This document shows positions 41,276 to 49,573 of a stretch of 64,000 nucleotides of DNA, one piece after another. The translations under genes and the position numbers were made by a program. Within the stretch, counting starts at the first letter, position 1, and every line of letters begins with the position of its first letter. The DNA lies in contig NZ_AP019781.1 of NCBI RefSeq assembly GCF_019669965.1, positions 1 through 64,000 on the forward strand. Reading direction: 5' to 3'. A model generated the notes under the pieces. That model searched no databases, had not been told where the DNA came from, and was given only the letters and a program-made list of their open reading frames with translations. The DNA is from Methanoculleus chikugoensis. GTDB lineage: Archaea; Halobacteriota; Methanomicrobia; Methanomicrobiales; Methanoculleaceae.

Positions 41276-42450
41276 GAGCGCTTCTCTCCCGGGTTACCGG
41301 GGAGGTCCGGGACCTCGCCGTCGTCGACGGCGAGACTGCGTACATCCGCGACCCGGTCTTTCCGGTCATCCGGAACCGCGTGAACGCCGAAGTCGCAAAA
41401 ACGATGCTCCGTCTGGGGGGCGACCCGCTCGTGGGCCCGATCCTGAACTACGCCGCGGGGTGCCAGAACCCAGACGGGTCCTGGAACGAGGTTCACGTCA
41501 ACTACAACGAGCCTTCGGCCCTGATCACGGCATTCATCGGCGACGCGTTCCTGGAGGCGGCGGATCGATATCCGCACGAAGAAGAACTCCGAAAAGCCCG
41601 GGACTACGTCCTCGCCGCCGAGAGGAGCCCGGGATGTTTCCTGAAGTCCCGGGGCTACACCGCCGACCACCTGAACGTCGACGCCTCCTGCGGGGCGTTC
41701 CTTGCCTGGTATGCGGAGCGCTACGACGATGAGGAAGCCCGTGCGGCCGCGCTGCGGGCGGCGGAGAACGTCGTCCGCCACCAGCGCCCCGACGGCGTCT
41801 ACCCCTACGCGGTCGATAAGGGGACCTATCCTTTCGTCTTCGACCTCCCCTGCGTGCACTACCAGGGGGTGACGACCTACTACCTCGCAAAGGCAAACGA
41901 CGTCCTGCGCGACGAGCGTATCGACGAGAGCATCGCAGGAGGCGTGCGGTGGCTCGCGGCCGCCCAACGCCCCGACGGGCGGTTCGATTGGTCGAAGAGC
42001 GGCCTCTCCTTCGCCTACCACCTCTCCGGGGCGTATGCATTCGCCCTGGCCTCGTTCGTCTACGCCTCGCGGACGGACGGGCGGTACCGGGAGCACGCCG
42101 ACCGCTGCCTCGAACGGCTCGAGCGGGACGTACCGGGGCTCGCCCCCCGGTGGGAGCCCGGCTCCTGGCCTGGTCTCGTCCCGTCCTTCGCCACGGCGGC
42201 GAAGGCGGCGTCGCTCGGGGACTACCCGCTGCGGCACCGGGCGTTCCGGTTCGGCTACGGCGTGTACCGCGAGATCGCCCGGCGGCGGTACGGCAGAACC
42301 GCGGAGACGCGGTCGTTCGAGGCTCTCTGCCGACTGCTCCGGATCCGGTCGTCGACCGTGGAACCGTCGAATAACTTCCCCGATCTCTTCATGACCTCGG
42401 AGGTGCTCGACTGTCTCAGCCAGTCGGGAGTATGGGAGAACCACGCATGA
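41260..42450 (+). CDS. Alpha/alpha-toroid protein of unknown function
   Basis: 396 residues from ATG at 41260 (GAGAGG five bases upstream). Repeating helical pairs with CQNPDGSWNEVH, QRPDGVYPYAV, AQRPDGRFDWSKSG mark an alpha/alpha-toroid of the kind found in terpene cyclases, polysaccharide lyases and uronate-processing enzymes. No catalytic signature that decides between them is recognised. Position between a glycosyltransferase and a bi-domain oxidoreductase, overlapping both, suggests a role on the glycan, such as epimerase or lyase. This is inference. Confidence 0.75.
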   Translation: MDGRVRALLSRVTGEVRDLAVVDGETAYIRDPVFPVIRNRVNAEVAKTMLRLGGDPLVGPILNYAAGCQNPDGSWNEVHVNYNEPSALITAFIGDAFLEAADRYPHEEELRKARDYVLAAERSPGCFLKSRGYTADHLNVDASCGAFLAWYAERYDDEEARAAALRAAENVVRHQRPDGVYPYAVDKGTYPFVFDLPCVHYQGVTTYYLAKANDVLRDERIDESIAGGVRWLAAAQRPDGRFDWSKSGLSFAYHLSGAYAFALASFVYASRTDGRYREHADRCLERLERDVPGLAPRWEPGSWPGLVPSFATAAKAASLGDYPLRHRAFRFGYGVYREIARRRYGRTAETRSFEALCRLLRIRSSTVEPSNNFPDLFMTSEVLDCLSQSGVWENHA

Positions 42451-44594
42451 AACAGGTATTGCTCGACCTGCATTCAGGGTCCATCCAGGTGGAGAACGTT
42501 CCCGTTCCCGCCGTCACGAGGGGGGTCGTCGTCGAGAACGCCTACTCCCTCATCAGCGCCGGCACCGAGTCGTCGCTGATCAATCTCGCACAGCAGTCGC
42601 TCGTCGGCAAGGCGAAGGCACGCCCCGACGACGTCAAGAAAGTCCTCCAGAAGATCGGGACGGACGGCCTCCTCCCGGCCTACCGGCAGGCGATGAGCCG
42701 TCTCTCCAAACCCGAACCGCTCGGCTACAGCTCTGCGGGCACGGTGGTGACGACGGCGTCCGACGAGTTCGAGGTCGGCGACCGCGTCGCCTGTGCCGGA
42801 GCCGGGTATGCGGTGCATGCCGAATACGTCTCGGTTCCAAAGAATCTCTGCGTCAGGATCCCCGACGGCGTCGGGTTCCGGGAGGCGGCGTTCACGACCG
42901 TGGGAGCGATCGCGATGCACGGTGCGAGAAACGCGAACGTCGCCGTGGGCGAGAACGTCGCGGTGATCGGGCTCGGGCTGATCGGGCTCCTCACCGTCCA
43001 GATCCTCAAAGCCGCGGGGTGCCGGGTGATCGGGATCGATATCGACCCCGAGAAACTCGCGCTCGCGGCGGATCTCGGCGCTGACGTCGTCTCGAACTAC
43101 GACGGCCTCTTCGAGCGGGTGCGGGCGTTCTCGCCGTTCGGGGCGGACGCGGTCATCATCACCGCGGCCACTAAATCAAGCGCACCCATCGAGGCCGCCG
43201 GCCGCCTGGTCAGGGACAGGGGCAGGGTCGTGGTCGTCGGGAACGTCGGCATGAACGTGCCCCGGGACGTCTTCTACGAGAAAGAGGCGGAGGTCGTCGT
43301 CTCCCGGTCGTACGGTCCCGGCCGCTACGACAGGAACTACGAGGAGCGGGGGATCGACTACCCGATCTACGTCCGGTGGACGGAGAAGAGGAACATGGAG
43401 GCGTTCCTCGAACTGGTGCGGCAGAAGAAGATCGACCTCGACCGCCTGATCACCCACACCTTCCCGCTCGATGAGGCGCCGGGGGCCTATGACCTCATCA
43501 ACACCGGAAAGGAACGGTTCATCGGGGTTCTCCTGCAGTACAGCCCGAACGGTTCGGGCGCCTCCGGCACCGTCGTCCGCTTCCCACAGCCCGGCGCACG
43601 GAAGCGCAAGGCTCCGGCCGCGGCCCGGACGCTCGGGTGCATCGGCGCCGGGGTCCACGCCCAGAGCGCCCTCTACCCGCACCTCTCCGCCCTCCCGGTG
43701 AACCTCGGGGGGCTTGCGACCGCGACGGGACTCTCGGCGCAGACGGTCGCGAAGAAGTACGGGTTCGCCTACTGCACCACCGACTACCGGAGGATCCTCG
43801 ACGACCCCGATATCGACGCAGTGATGATCGCGACGAGAAACGACCTGCATGCGCCGATGGCAATCGAGGCGCTGCGCGCCGGAAAAGACGTCTTCGTGGA
43901 AAAACCGCTCGCGACCGATATCGACAGCCTCCGCCGGATCGTCGAGGCCAGAAACGAGTCCGGGCGGCGGCTGATGGTCGGGTTCAATCGCCGCCACTCC
44001 CCGCTTGCCGTGAAGATGAAGGAGTTCTTCAAAAACCGGGCAACCCCCGCCGTCCTGCACTACCGGGTCAACGCCGGGCAGATCCCGCCCGAACACTGGG
44101 TGCACGACGACGAGCAGGGCGGCGGGATGCTGATCTCGGAGTGCTGCCACTTCATCGACTTCATGCAGTACATCACCGGGGCACGGCCGGTCCAGGTCGT
44201 TGCCCGGGCGATCGAGCCGACCGGGACGCTCCGGAAGTACGACAACTTCCAGGCGACCCTGACGTTCGACGACGGGTCGCTCGGCACCGTCACCTACACG
44301 ACGCTCGGGGATCGCTCCTACCCCAAAGAGACGGTCGAGGTCTTCGCCGGCAACGCTGTCGGGAGGATCACCGACTTCCGCGACCTCGAACTCCGGCGGG
44401 AGGGGAAGGCATCGCGGGAGAAGCGGTGGCTCACCCAGGAGAAGGGGTTTGCCGAGGAACTCCTGGCGTTCGTGAAGGGCGAGGAGCCGGACTTCGCCGG
44501 AAGCGTCGCGACGACGCTCGCGACGTTTGCGGCATGGGAGTCGATCGACACCGGGGCGACGCAGGAGATCGATCTCGGGCGGGTCGGGTTGTGA
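42447..44594 (+). CDS. Bi-domain oxidoreductase (zinc-type alcohol dehydrogenase + Gfo/Idh/MocA)
   Basis: 715 residues from ATG at 42447, which overlaps the stop of the toroid gene (ATGA). Residues about 1-370 form a medium-chain dehydrogenase (SLISAGTESSLI, VAVIGLGLIGLLTVQILKA for NAD(P)), and about 390-715 a Gfo/Idh/MocA oxidoreductase (LGCIGAGVHAQSALYPHL, the EKPLATD motif, and GGGMLISECCHFIDFM). This fused architecture is common in exopolysaccharide gene clusters beside heparinase-like proteins; its reaction is unproven, but sugar oxidation/reduction is likely. Confidence 0.9.
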   Translation: MKQVLLDLHSGSIQVENVPVPAVTRGVVVENAYSLISAGTESSLINLAQQSLVGKAKARPDDVKKVLQKIGTDGLLPAYRQAMSRLSKPEPLGYSSAGTVVTTASDEFEVGDRVACAGAGYAVHAEYVSVPKNLCVRIPDGVGFREAAFTTVGAIAMHGARNANVAVGENVAVIGLGLIGLLTVQILKAAGCRVIGIDIDPEKLALAADLGADVVSNYDGLFERVRAFSPFGADAVIITAATKSSAPIEAAGRLVRDRGRVVVVGNVGMNVPRDVFYEKEAEVVVSRSYGPGRYDRNYEERGIDYPIYVRWTEKRNMEAFLELVRQKKIDLDRLITHTFPLDEAPGAYDLINTGKERFIGVLLQYSPNGSGASGTVVRFPQPGARKRKAPAAARTLGCIGAGVHAQSALYPHLSALPVNLGGLATATGLSAQTVAKKYGFAYCTTDYRRILDDPDIDAVMIATRNDLHAPMAIEALRAGKDVFVEKPLATDIDSLRRIVEARNESGRRLMVGFNRRHSPLAVKMKEFFKNRATPAVLHYRVNAGQIPPEHWVHDDEQGGGMLISECCHFIDFMQYITGARPVQVVARAIEPTGTLRKYDNFQATLTFDDGSLGTVTYTTLGDRSYPKETVEVFAGNAVGRITDFRDLELRREGKASREKRWLTQEKGFAEELLAFVKGEEPDFAGSVATTLATFAAWESIDTGATQEIDLGRVGL

Positions 44595-45076: not shown

Positions 45077-46189
45077 TTACAGAGACGAAATCCGGGTATT
45101 CCGGATATACGCCAGCTGTTCGCGGATCCGCTCCGGGATCGTGCGGGGGTCTCCTGCCATAACAGCATCATGCCACTCCTCCCGGCACGAGCAGTCCAGA
45201 CCGTCGAACTCCGCCATGTCGAAATGGGAGTTGTAGCGCTGGATGGCTTCGGTGATCCCGGCATCGCACTTCCCGCAGTTCCGGGCCCAGTCGAGCGACT
45301 CGACCGAGTAGTTCCAGGGGCTGACGTAGACGTGGGCACGGTCCCCGAACCGTTCCCGGCACTGCTGCAGGAGTTCGACGAGCGTCCAGAGCCACGGCGG
45401 GCGGTAGAGGTCGTTCTTCCAGAGTTCGTGCACGACGGTGTTCTTCTCGACCGTCGTCACCTCGAGGTCGACGTAGTCGATCCCGCGGGAGATGCAGTAG
45501 GAGATGGTCTGCAGGATGTCGTCTATCGCTTCTCCTTCAGTGAGGAACGGCGGTTTTACCAGGAGGAGCGGTTTCGTCAGCACGCCCATTCCCCGCATCC
45601 TTGAATGGAAGAGATCGAAGTTGTTCGCCGAAAACCCCTTGTTGATGCAGAGGTTCATCACCTGGGCGTTTGCAGACTCGAACCCGAACGCCACCTCGAG
45701 CTGCCGCCCGTTTAAGGCTTTCTTCATCTTTGCCACGTGCTCGTCGGGGGAATAATCGATCCTCGACTCGACGACCACCTTCTTGATGGTTCGATAGTCG
45801 TCGATGTACGAGCAGATCTTCTCGATGGCGGCAACCGGCATCTCTCGCTCGTTAAAGATGTTACCGTCGTTGTATATCGAGACGATCGGGTAATCACCGA
45901 GATCGACGGCGTCCATCACGTGCTCGAACTGCGCAATGTATTCGTCAGCCGATACCTCTCTGCCCCGGGAAGTTGCACAGTAAAAACCGCACATGGTACA
46001 CCCTCCCGTCTTCTCGACCCACTCGCACCCCGTGGACCGGAGGAAGATGATCAGCCGCCTGATGGGTTGATCGTCGAGATGTCCAATCCGCTCCTCCCAC
46101 CCGATAGGAATCGTAAAATCGAGGTCTTGCGGAACCTTTCCATTCTGTTTGCGCAGCCCGCCGGCCAGTGCCCGGATCTCGTTTAGAAT
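45077..46189 (-). CDS. Radical SAM protein (archaeosine/Elp3-like, TIGR01210-type), no canonical start codon
   Basis: The first in-frame ATG is at 45994 and would give 305 residues, but the conserved cluster region lies partly upstream of it: STGCEWVEKTGGCTMCGFYC runs across the ATG (cysteines encoded at 46025-46027, 45998-46000, 45989-45991 and 45977-45979). The frame is open to a stop at 46328, with no ATG, GTG or TTG between. GGAG near 46196 lies six bases before an ATT codon at 46189, used here as a tentative start, so a rare ATT start or a lesion is possible. The family binds a [4Fe-4S] cluster and SAM. Later segments (VVVESRIDYSPDE, EVAFGFESANAQVMN, DYVDLEVTTVEKNTVV) are intact. Confidence 0.75.
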   Translation of the reverse strand: MLNEIRALAGGLRKQNGKVPQDLDFTIPIGWEERIGHLDDQPIRRLIIFLRSTGCEWVEKTGGCTMCGFYCATSRGREVSADEYIAQFEHVMDAVDLGDYPIVSIYNDGNIFNEREMPVAAIEKICSYIDDYRTIKKVVVESRIDYSPDEHVAKMKKALNGRQLEVAFGFESANAQVMNLCINKGFSANNFDLFHSRMRGMGVLTKPLLLVKPPFLTEGEAIDDILQTISYCISRGIDYVDLEVTTVEKNTVVHELWKNDLYRPPWLWTLVELLQQCRERFGDRAHVYVSPWNYSVESLDWARNCGKCDAGITEAIQRYNSHFDMAEFDGLDCSCREEWHDAVMAGDPRTIPERIREQLAYIRNTRISSL

Positions 46190-46740
46190 ATCATTCTCCG
46201 ATGAATGACCCGTGAAGGCCTCTGCGCTGCTACTGCTATCAGGTACGGCCCTATCTAGAATAATTATCCCCCCTGTTCCGGGTATGCGCCTTCGGCATGA
46301 AGGTGCACGGCCCCGGTGACTGTCGCCTTATCTTACCAAGACATACCCCTGATAGGCTTTCGCATATTTATAGTTTATCCAATCAGCCAGATTACCGGGT
46401 CATGTTTCCGAAAAGGTATTCTCTGACAGGAAATCCTGGAAATCAGGCGGTCCGTTGAGAAGAACCGGATCAGGACGCCCGCTGTATGTCATCCGGAGAG
46501 CGATCCGTTCGTCCATAGAACCCTGATCCCGAATGGGAGAGATGACAGCATGCCAATTTTTATATACGTTGTTTGGGGGTATACTGTCCCGATGCACTGG
46601 TGGAGAGCCGTCCGGGAGATCCTCCGGGAAACGACCGGAAAGAGCCCGGTGGAGACCGGAAGAGCGGGGCGAAGAGGCGGGATGACCGTGCGTCCTCAAT
46701 GCACACGGCACAAGAACGCATGAGAAGGGGGACAAAGGGC
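46190..46740. other. Divergent promoter region and leader before the first CapK gene
   Basis: About 550 bases. The 46190-46327 part is the open upstream extension of the radical SAM frame. A hairpin (GCGCCTTCGGCATGAAGGTGC, near 46287) follows. A 38-codon minus-strand open frame at 46400-46516 lacks any recognisable motif. A strong TATA-like TTTTATATAC is at 46557-46566, about 175 bases before the CapK start, so the leader is long for this organism. Confidence 0.4.
46557..46566 (+). promoter_or_regulatory. TATA box for the first CapK-like gene
   Basis: TTTTATATAC. It is nearly symmetric and could also fire to the left. Confidence 0.5.
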
Positions 46741-48168
46741 ATGATTCGTCTGGGAGAGAGGATCTGCGGCAGAGAATCGTTCACTGCAAAAGCTCTCGGG
46801 CTTCTCCCGGCCTATAACGTCTATCGAAAGACCTACGCTTTCCTCCGGGAGTCCCAGGGGTGGAGCCGGGAAGAGCTCGCGGCCTACCAGGCCCGGGCGC
46901 TCTCGCGGCTGCTCGACCACGCCTACAGGAATGTCCCCTACTACCGGAGGGTCTTTCAGGAGCGCGGCCTTGTCCCGGAAGACATCCGGACTCCCGACGA
47001 CCTGGCGCTCCTCCCGATCCTGACCCGGGAGGATCTCCAGGCCAACCTCCCGGACCTGAAGGCCCGGAACTACCCCGAGTCCGCCTTCGAGTACGTCACC
47101 ACCGGCGGCTCCACTGGGATCCCGGTCGGGTTCTACTACGAGAAAGGGGTCTCCCGCGCCCGGGAGTGGGCGTTCATGAAGACCCAGTGGGACCGCGTCG
47201 GCTACCGATTCACCGACCGCTGCGTCGTCCTCCGGGGCTACATCATCGGGTCGGCAAAAAACGGTGTCTACTGGAAGAAGACCCTCGGCGGCCGGTGGCT
47301 GCTGATGTCTTCCCACCACATGACCGAGGAGACCCTGCCCGCCTACATCGACCGGATCCGGAGGTTCAAACCCCGCTTCATCCAGGGATACCCCTCCACG
47401 GCCGTGATACTCGCCCGGTATATGCGGGAGCACGGCATCGAGCCCATCTCGACCGTCAAGGCCGTCCTCTGCGGGTCGGAGAACCTCTACCCCTGGCAGC
47501 GCGACCTCCTCACCGAGGTCTTCGGGTGCCGGGTCTTCTCCTGGTACGGCAACTCCGAGCAGACGGTGCTCGCCGGCGAGTGCGAGGAGAGCACCCACTA
47601 CCACATCTTCCCCGAATACGGGATCGTCGAACTGATCGGACGGGACGGACGGCCCGTCCGGGGCCCGGGGGCGATGGGCGAGGTGGTCACGACCAACCTC
47701 ACCAACTTCGTCTGCCCCCTCATCCGCTACCGCACCATGGACCTTGCCACGGCGGCCGGAGGGGCCTGTTCCTGCGGCCGTGCCTACCCGATACTCGAGC
47801 GCGTGGAAGGAAGGGTTCAGGACTTCATTGTGACGGACAAAGGCGAACTCCTCTCCGGGATCGCCATGAACATCGATACCGATGCGTTCGACAACGTTAA
47901 ACAATTTCAGTTCTACCAGGAGAAGGTCGGGGAAGTCATACTGAATATCGTGAGAAAACCGGCGTTCAGCAAGCAGGACGCGGAGTATCTCTACCGGGAG
48001 GTGAGCAGGAGTTGCGGCGACGACGTCCGTATCACCATCAGGTACGTCGACAACATACCGCTCACCGCCCGCGGCAAGTACCGTTACTTCGTTCAGGGCC
48101 TGCCGATACACTTCAGCGACCGCGAAGGGGGGATTGTCGAACATGTCTCCCACGACCTGCTCGCCTGA
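46741..48168 (+). CDS. CapK / phenylacetate-CoA ligase-like protein, copy 1
   Basis: 475 residues from ATG at 46741 (GGGGGAC ahead). Adenylate-forming fold: the P-loop-like TTGGSTGIPVGFYYEKGVSR, A-motif region SWYGNSEQTVLAGECEEST, then LIRYRTMDLA and the zinc-type CSCGRAYPILERVEGRVQDFI found in CapK and coenzyme F390 synthetase relatives. It should activate a carboxylic acid as acyl-AMP. Target unknown; gene context points to the surface polymer rather than F390. DNA is almost identical to copy 3 over most of its length. Confidence 0.85.
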   Translation: MIRLGERICGRESFTAKALGLLPAYNVYRKTYAFLRESQGWSREELAAYQARALSRLLDHAYRNVPYYRRVFQERGLVPEDIRTPDDLALLPILTREDLQANLPDLKARNYPESAFEYVTTGGSTGIPVGFYYEKGVSRAREWAFMKTQWDRVGYRFTDRCVVLRGYIIGSAKNGVYWKKTLGGRWLLMSSHHMTEETLPAYIDRIRRFKPRFIQGYPSTAVILARYMREHGIEPISTVKAVLCGSENLYPWQRDLLTEVFGCRVFSWYGNSEQTVLAGECEESTHYHIFPEYGIVELIGRDGRPVRGPGAMGEVVTTNLTNFVCPLIRYRTMDLATAAGGACSCGRAYPILERVEGRVQDFIVTDKGELLSGIAMNIDTDAFDNVKQFQFYQEKVGEVILNIVRKPAFSKQDAEYLYREVSRSCGDDVRITIRYVDNIPLTARGKYRYFVQGLPIHFSDREGGIVEHVSHDLLA

Positions 48169-48184
48169 CCAGGGAGGTATATAT

Positions 48185-49573
48185 ATGAAGGCCGGTCTTC
48201 ATCGATGGGTGTCGCGTGCAAACCCGCTCACCGTCAAAGCACTCAGTCTGGTGCCGTCGTACCGTACCTACCGGCAGATGTATGCACTCCTCCGGCAGTC
48301 ACAGTGGTGGAGCCGGGAGGAACTCGCGGCCTACCAGGCCCGGGCGCTCTCGCGGCTGCTCGACCACGCCTACGAGAATGTCCCCTACTATCGAAGGGTC
48401 TTTCAGGAGCGCGGCCTTGTCCCGGAGGACATCCGGACTCCCGACGACCTGGCGCTCCTCCCGTTCCTGACCAAGGAGATCGTCCAGGCCAACCTCCCGG
48501 ACCTGAAGGCCCGGAACTACCCCGAGTCCGCCTTCGAGTACGTGCGCACATCCGGCTCAACCGGCACCCCCATGGGGTTCTACTACGAGAAAGGGGTCTC
48601 CCGCGCCCGGGAGTGGGCGTTCATGAAGACCCAGTGGGACCGCGTCGGCTACCGGTTCACCGACCGCTGCGTCGTCCTCCGGGGGCACGTCGTGGACGCG
48701 GCATCCAGCGGCACCTACTGGAGGCGTGCGCTCTTCGGCCGGTGGCTGATCATGTCCTCCCACCAGATGACCGAGGAGACCCTGCCGGACTACGTCGACC
48801 GGATCCGGAGGTTCATGCCCCGGTTCATCCACGTCTATCCCTCCACGGCCGTGATACTCGCCCGGTATATGCGGGAGCACGGCATTGAGCCCATCCCGAC
48901 CGTCAAGGCCGTCCTCTGCGGGTCGGAGAACCTCTACCCCTGGCAGCGCGACCTCCTCACCGAGGTCTTCGGGTGCCGGGTCTTCTCCTGGTACGGCAAC
49001 TCCGAGCAGACGGTGCTTGCCGGCGAGTGCGAGGAGAGCACCCGCTACCACATCTTCCCCGAATACGGGATCGTCGAACTGATCGGACGGGACGGACGGC
49101 CCGTCGAAGGGGCCGGCGCCATGGGCGAGGTGGTCGCGACCAACCTCACCAACTTCGCCTGCCCCCTCATCCGCTACCGCACCATGGACATCGCGGTCGC
49201 CACGGAAAAGCGGTGCTCCTGCGGGAGAGAGTATCCCCTGCTCGAGAAGGTCGAGGGGAGGCTCCAGGAGTTCATCGTAACCCGGAGCGGGCACCTGATC
49301 TCCGTCACCCCCATCAACTACGAATCCGAAGCGTTCGAGAATATACGGCAGTTCCAGATGTACCAGGAGGAGGCGGGGGAACTCATCATGAAGATCGTCA
49401 GAAAACCGGCTTACACCGAGAAGGACACCCGGCAGTTGACAGACGAACTCCGGTGCCAGCTCGGTGACGGGGTGAACGTCCACGTCCGTTTCGTCGATGA
49501 GATCCCCCGCACCGAGGGCGGGAAGTTCCGGTACCTCATCCAGAAACTTCCCATCTCGATCGGCGACCTCTGA
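48185..49573 (+). CDS. CapK / phenylacetate-CoA ligase-like protein, copy 2
   Basis: 462 residues from ATG at 48185, after GGGAGGT. Same adenylate-forming layout as copy 1: RTSGSTGTPMGFYYEKGVSR, SWYGNSEQTVLAGECEEST, LIRYRTMDIA, CSCGREYPLLEKVEGRLQEFI. It differs from copies 1 and 3 in patches around the P-loop, residues about 175-225 and the whole C-terminal domain, while the rest of the DNA is nearly identical. This suggests a different acid substrate on a shared scaffold. It begins 16 bases after copy 1 ends, so the two are probably one transcript. Confidence 0.85.
   Translation: MKAGLHRWVSRANPLTVKALSLVPSYRTYRQMYALLRQSQWWSREELAAYQARALSRLLDHAYENVPYYRRVFQERGLVPEDIRTPDDLALLPFLTKEIVQANLPDLKARNYPESAFEYVRTSGSTGTPMGFYYEKGVSRAREWAFMKTQWDRVGYRFTDRCVVLRGHVVDAASSGTYWRRALFGRWLIMSSHQMTEETLPDYVDRIRRFMPRFIHVYPSTAVILARYMREHGIEPIPTVKAVLCGSENLYPWQRDLLTEVFGCRVFSWYGNSEQTVLAGECEESTRYHIFPEYGIVELIGRDGRPVEGAGAMGEVVATNLTNFACPLIRYRTMDIAVATEKRCSCGREYPLLEKVEGRLQEFIVTRSGHLISVTPINYESEAFENIRQFQMYQEEAGELIMKIVRKPAYTEKDTRQLTDELRCQLGDGVNVHVRFVDEIPRTEGGKFRYLIQKLPISIGDL

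Follow-up and report, generated by a model that had tools for sequence, protein, structure and literature searches.

A radical SAM gene on the minus strand of the analysed window (64,000 nucleotides of contig NZ_AP019781.1 from Methanoculleus chikugoensis) is very probably functional, with AUU 46261-46259 serving as its start codon behind a GGGGGG Shine-Dalgarno element. The comparison of orthologous 5' ends points to AUU as the codon used in the cell. The main features of the gene are as follows.

45077 to 46261, minus strand: coding sequence of a predicted radical SAM protein, apparently a RaSEA paralogue, 394 codons plus TAA (TIGR01210 score and structure model)
46259 to 46261, minus strand: putative ATT (AUU) initiation codon, ATT in 29 of 30 Methanoculleaceae 5' ends and GTG in the 30th
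46268 to 46273, minus strand: GGGGGG, candidate Shine-Dalgarno element, separated from the ATT by 6 nt, at least five Gs in 30 of 30 loci, 16S pairing
46187 to 46189, minus strand: ATT proposed as the start by the original prediction, not conserved
45989 to 46027, minus strand: C-x8-C-x2-C cluster motif, codons C79 to C91, with C79, C88 and C91 invariant in 27 rows
45992 to 45994, minus strand: internal methionine M90, the first canonical start codon (ATG) in the frame scan

The stop-to-stop frame that contains the gene covers 45077..46327 on the minus strand (416 codons). The original prediction, made from the letters of the window, described this frame as open upstream without ATG, GTG or TTG, and its first in-frame ATG as crossed by the GGCTMCG segment. 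Both points were borne out: the frame is open from 46327, and the ATG at 45994 is its earliest ATG, GTG or TTG codon and encodes M90 of GGC-T-M-C-G. The C79-x8-C88-x2-C91 pattern is invariant in 27 of 27 alignment rows, RaSEA among them, and would provide the three radical SAM cysteines for a predicted [4Fe-4S] cluster. Two of the three, C79 (46027-46025) and C88 (46000-45998), are located upstream of ATG 45994; therefore a protein started there would be without two cluster cysteines, and it would also lose the first strands of the structure model. The start-codon comparison showed that this motif ATG is not where the orthologues begin. The gene is full length in all 28 loci compared (the window and 27 relatives), and in four of these (window, L010, L021 and L026) a canonical codon is absent from the upstream stop through the motif.

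The family search gave some match in 40 of 40 genomes, and this orthologue in 31 of them, own genome included, as judged by E-value and identity; the remaining nine hold a distant RaSEA copy or short fragments. For example, only short fragments were found in the draft genomes G020 (69% over 83 residues) and G024 (60% over 30 residues), which perhaps reflect contig ends or decay. The family group was defined by names as Methanoculleus and near relatives, and the nearest relative read is a M. chikugoensis record (95%, L006/L051). The 5' end was read in 30 of the 31 orthologues, including 28 in the nucleotide alignment plus L073 and L074; the G025 contig starts inside the gene.

The 28-locus nucleotide alignment (window included) contains GGGGG(G), then 5-8 bases, then ATT in 27 loci and GTG in L029. 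L073 and L074, read outside this alignment, also have ATT, so that ATT occupies the start site in 29 of the 30 readable Methanoculleaceae 5' ends. One start tally was located by the string ATTCT behind the G-run; the alignment provides the independent view. ATT accounts for only 46 of the 654 other Ile codons in 27 genes, and for 2 of 216 cells in eight other amino-acid-invariant Ile columns (L029 excluded). Such a rare synonymous codon that is nevertheless invariant points to use as a signal. The 15 N-terminal residues are disordered in the structure model, and therefore the first residue would not be fixed by structure. The two codons ahead of the ATT are variable (AGT, CAT, GGT and GAG among them, with TAG at -6 in L021), TGA also occurs among the codons upstream, and the codon after ATT is CTN with a variable third base. 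Conservation extends to the bases on either side of the ATT (GGGG..ATTCT, GTACCTGATAGCAGTAGC), and further nucleotide-level constraint could add to the ATT invariance.

In 26 of the 30 loci the roughly 13 nt next to the G-run are free of ATG, GTG and TTG in all frames. The four others (L007, L024, L031 and L029) have a canonical codon near the run, which counts against the AUU reading: L024 has an ATG directly after the run and L031 a TTG one codon before the ATT, and the GTG of L029 sits at the same distance from the run as ATT elsewhere. L007, where the codon preceding the conserved ATT is an ATG (GGGGGGATAATGATT), resembles a natural near-revertant and may use either codon.

At least five Gs stand 5-8 nt ahead of the start in all 30 loci. 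The 16S tail of the genome itself is TGGATCACCTCCT. Its pairing with the 20 bases before the window ATT has an energy of -11.6 kcal/mol, and of 2000 20-mers drawn at random from the window about 5% pair equally well. The G-run and ATT motif is uninformative on its own, with one match in the window versus 3.64 expected. GC3 is 0.46 in codons 2-12 versus 0.82 in codons 46-394, as expected of an initiation region. In the proposed mechanism, the GGGGGG six bases upstream of the AUU would place the 30S subunit at 46261-46259, and methionyl initiator tRNA would presumably read the AUU to begin the protein M-LDRAVPDSSSS...

Two further features were located upstream of the G-run.

46274 to 46345, minus strand: conserved gene-specific leader from the alignment, with dyads TCTTGGTAAGA (46341-46331) and GGCGACAGTCACC (46327-46315)
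46365 to 46372, minus strand: TATAAATA, predicted TATA box, conserved in the 28-row alignment

The TATAAATA element is a predicted TATA box. The leader, which is conserved in the genus, also contains a hairpin-like stretch. No second leader copy was found in the genome within 3 mismatches; a leader model retrieved the gene itself (1.2e-31) and two other sites (E 0.39 and 0.58), which were taken as chance. An Rfam search of 45900-46700 gave no match up to E 5, and the single-sequence leader fold was no stabler than shuffles (z -0.40). RNAalifold draws the leader as paired to codons 4-7. The covariation of this long-range pairing and of the local hairpins was no better than shuffles, and therefore an RNA structure is not claimed. 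The dyad blocks at 46315-46341 (minus strand; TCTTGGTAAGA and GGCGACAGTCACC, with GGCGACGATCGCC in L023) lie directly downstream of the predicted transcription start and are conserved in the genus; they may form a repressor site, and the leader is possibly an operator.

An alternative would be that another near-cognate codon is used, such as a neighbouring ATA or ATT or the CTN, and that the ATT is kept for another reason, for example as part of an RNA element. Nucleotide conservation does reach both sides of the ATT, and the drawn pairing with codons 4-7 would agree with such an element; however, the two codons ahead of the ATT and the CTN behind it are both variable, and the pairing has no covariation support. 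This explanation is regarded as very improbable. Slightly less credit is given to a canonical start in an upstream or other frame, followed by a frameshift or readthrough into the radical SAM frame. Short ATG-started frames are present in the leader (e.g., ATG-TCT-TGG-TAA at about 46344), and some relatives have in-frame upstream ATGs, for example at -24. However, in-frame stops at most 36 nt upstream are found in 11 of 28 loci and are not common to all, unlike a readthrough site; the leader also has frame-breaking indels, and the ATG at -24 precedes the G-run and is absent from the window.

Initiation at AUU 46261-46259 also agrees with the onset of coding constraint. The whole gene gave dN/dS values of about 0.12-0.23 against seven relatives, and it is under purifying selection; the values for codons 2-43 were higher (about 0.16-0.53). 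Among 25 genus members, the mean pairwise differences at the three codon positions were 0.172/0.157/0.341 in codons 2-24 versus 0.275/0.278/0.388 just upstream of the ATT, where the bias is weaker, though not flat. Third positions are the most variable from codon 2 onward. From the ATT to codon 24 the 28-locus alignment has zero indels (L029 apart), whereas the leader has several.

The evidence supports the rare start codon of the original prediction but not the position given for it, ATT 46189 with a GGAG as the Shine-Dalgarno element. Both the GGAG and this ATT are present in the window; however, the best-supported ATT is that at 46261-46259, and the corresponding position (window codon 25) reads GTT in 11, ATT in 7, GTC in 5, ATC in 3, ACT in 1 and CTT in 1 of 28 orthologues. 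Moreover, a start at 46189 would cut the predicted helix of residues 20-38, and constraint begins already upstream of it, so that this position has almost no probability. The other suggestion, that a recent pseudogene or a sequencing error had removed the normal start, would fit the missing canonical start of the window gene but can be set aside, since many species and assemblies are in the same state with full-length frames and dN/dS of about 0.12-0.23, and an assembly error cannot explain an ATT common to 29 of 30 orthologues.

The product scored 234.0 bits against the NCBIfam model TIGR01210 (RaSEA), above the cut-off of 212.15; the Methanofollis-type orthologue L049 reached 210.3 bits, just under it. 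The profile match begins at residue 61 of 394, well upstream of M90. The structure model, based on a 27-row alignment, has a mean pLDDT of 85.5, and places a helix (20-38) and two strands (54-62 and 65-73) ahead of M90. Foldseek of the model returned Elp3 chains as the best matches among solved structures, at E 6.7e-8 and probability 1.00 with a TMq of about 0.5, and matched other radical SAM enzymes too; the predicted fold is a radical SAM barrel. The Pfam search gave no family, and a sequence search for solved relatives gave none up to E 1.

RaSEA is described, in the part of the source available, as acting in complex with ArcS to convert preQ0-Lys15 to archaeosine (PMC11298593). The window protein resembles RaSEA in its score above the family cut-off, its C-x8-C-x2-C motif and its aligned core; whereas it differs in having about 60 additional N-terminal residues and in its separate clade, and the genome has its own RaSEA with an ordinary ATG behind GAGGT. 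The two proteins of this genome are about 30-32% identical. Of 61 genomes, 59 carry a separate RaSEA, and these cover 23 of 23 genera as tallied. The ten RaSEA sequences used in the tree formed a clade of their own (98/94), and the window gene shares a 100/100 branch with its orthologues. The gene therefore appears not to be orthologous to the RaSEA of the order, and its product is, by sequence, a lineage-specific paralogue rather than RaSEA itself. This paralogue probably acts on RNA.

The order-wide search of 150 genomes gave 32 matches at E 1e-60 or better, including four of one genus in another family. A Methanofollis MAG record (L072) was placed among these four by identical flanking sequence, and G087 is the fourth. 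All three of the Methanofollis-type loci read (L048/L072, L049 and L050) have GTG just after the same G-run. On the tree, two changes are required to account for the ATT label, and the GTG rows (L029 and the three Methanofollis-type loci) group at 97/83; several forks are weakly supported, and the tree gives no direction between ATT to GTG and GTG to ATT. A one-site switch between GTG and ATT would be the simplest history.

Near-cognate starts are known from bacteria, where IF3 represses them and where infC (ATT, E. coli) and sigR (GTC) take advantage of such repression, as reported in the accessible text of PMC5472188. The infC gene of Escherichia coli is a functional gene with a conserved AUU start, and the present gene likewise has a conserved putative AUU behind a Shine-Dalgarno element in 29 of 30 loci; whereas infC is bacterial and encodes the fidelity factor itself with demonstrated autoregulation, and here the product is an archaeal radical SAM protein for which regulation is inferred. 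The sigR gene of Streptomyces also keeps a near-cognate start within a lineage and its product is not an initiation factor; however, its start is GTC rather than ATT, it is bacterial, and IF3 repression was shown by experiment (both comparisons from the same portion of PMC5472188). In archaea, aIF1 favours discrimination against non-canonical starts, according to the section seen of PMC6237735. By analogy with IF3 acting on infC and sigR, the weak AUU might be retained for the low level of synthesis that it gives and for the dependence of this synthesis on initiation stringency, which is a tentative suggestion. It is rather unlikely that the AUU is a dedicated regulatory start, with translation reading out stringency (aIF1 or the state of the initiator tRNA) together with the conserved leader. 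In that reading, the likeness of the product to a tRNA-modifying enzyme could mean that it completes a feedback loop acting on initiation.

A genus-wide AUU start would be unusual in archaea. Elsewhere, a start codon has hardly ever changed to AUU, with 1 such case among 61,358 ancestral AUG starts and 1 among 5,080 ancestral GUG starts in the figures seen in PMC5622118. According to passages of a 2021 review, elongation and termination were the only stages for which non-canonical events had been demonstrated in archaea (PMC8211752). The proposed precedent is a single gene, the Asgard (Kariarchaeaceae) tubulin gene atubA, for which the portion available of a 2026 paper inferred a likely ATT start (PMC13394414). 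The two cases are similar in that the archaeal ATT of atubA was also deduced, its basis being the N-terminus together with a plausible ribosome-binding site; whereas atubA is one deposited sequence versus the 29 of 30 orthologues here (PMC13394414, same portion). Asgard tubulin apart, no report came up in the open-licence literature searched, either on the start of this gene or on an AUU start conserved in archaea. An AUU start kept across the genus and into a neighbouring genus would be natural evidence for archaeal ribosomes using AUU in the cell, and the gene could serve as a convenient reporter for start selection that depends on aIF1. Moreover, gene finders commonly allow ATG, GTG and TTG only, and so a Methanoculleus genome annotated in this way would have the enzyme truncated within its active-site motif. 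Misannotation has been reported for infC-type genes with a non-canonical start (PMC5472188, text as accessible).

Two tandem, closely similar open frames with long identical stretches are located on the plus strand at 46573-48168 and 48134-49573; they resemble phenylacetate-CoA ligase-type proteins by eye, and perhaps represent a recent duplication with partial homogenisation. A 720-residue fusion frame at 42432-44594 is convergent with the radical SAM gene. By eye, we take it to be a zinc-alcohol-dehydrogenase-like protein fused to a Gfo/Idh-like oxidoreductase, and similar frames are found near the radical SAM gene in 20 of the 27 loci compared, window included.
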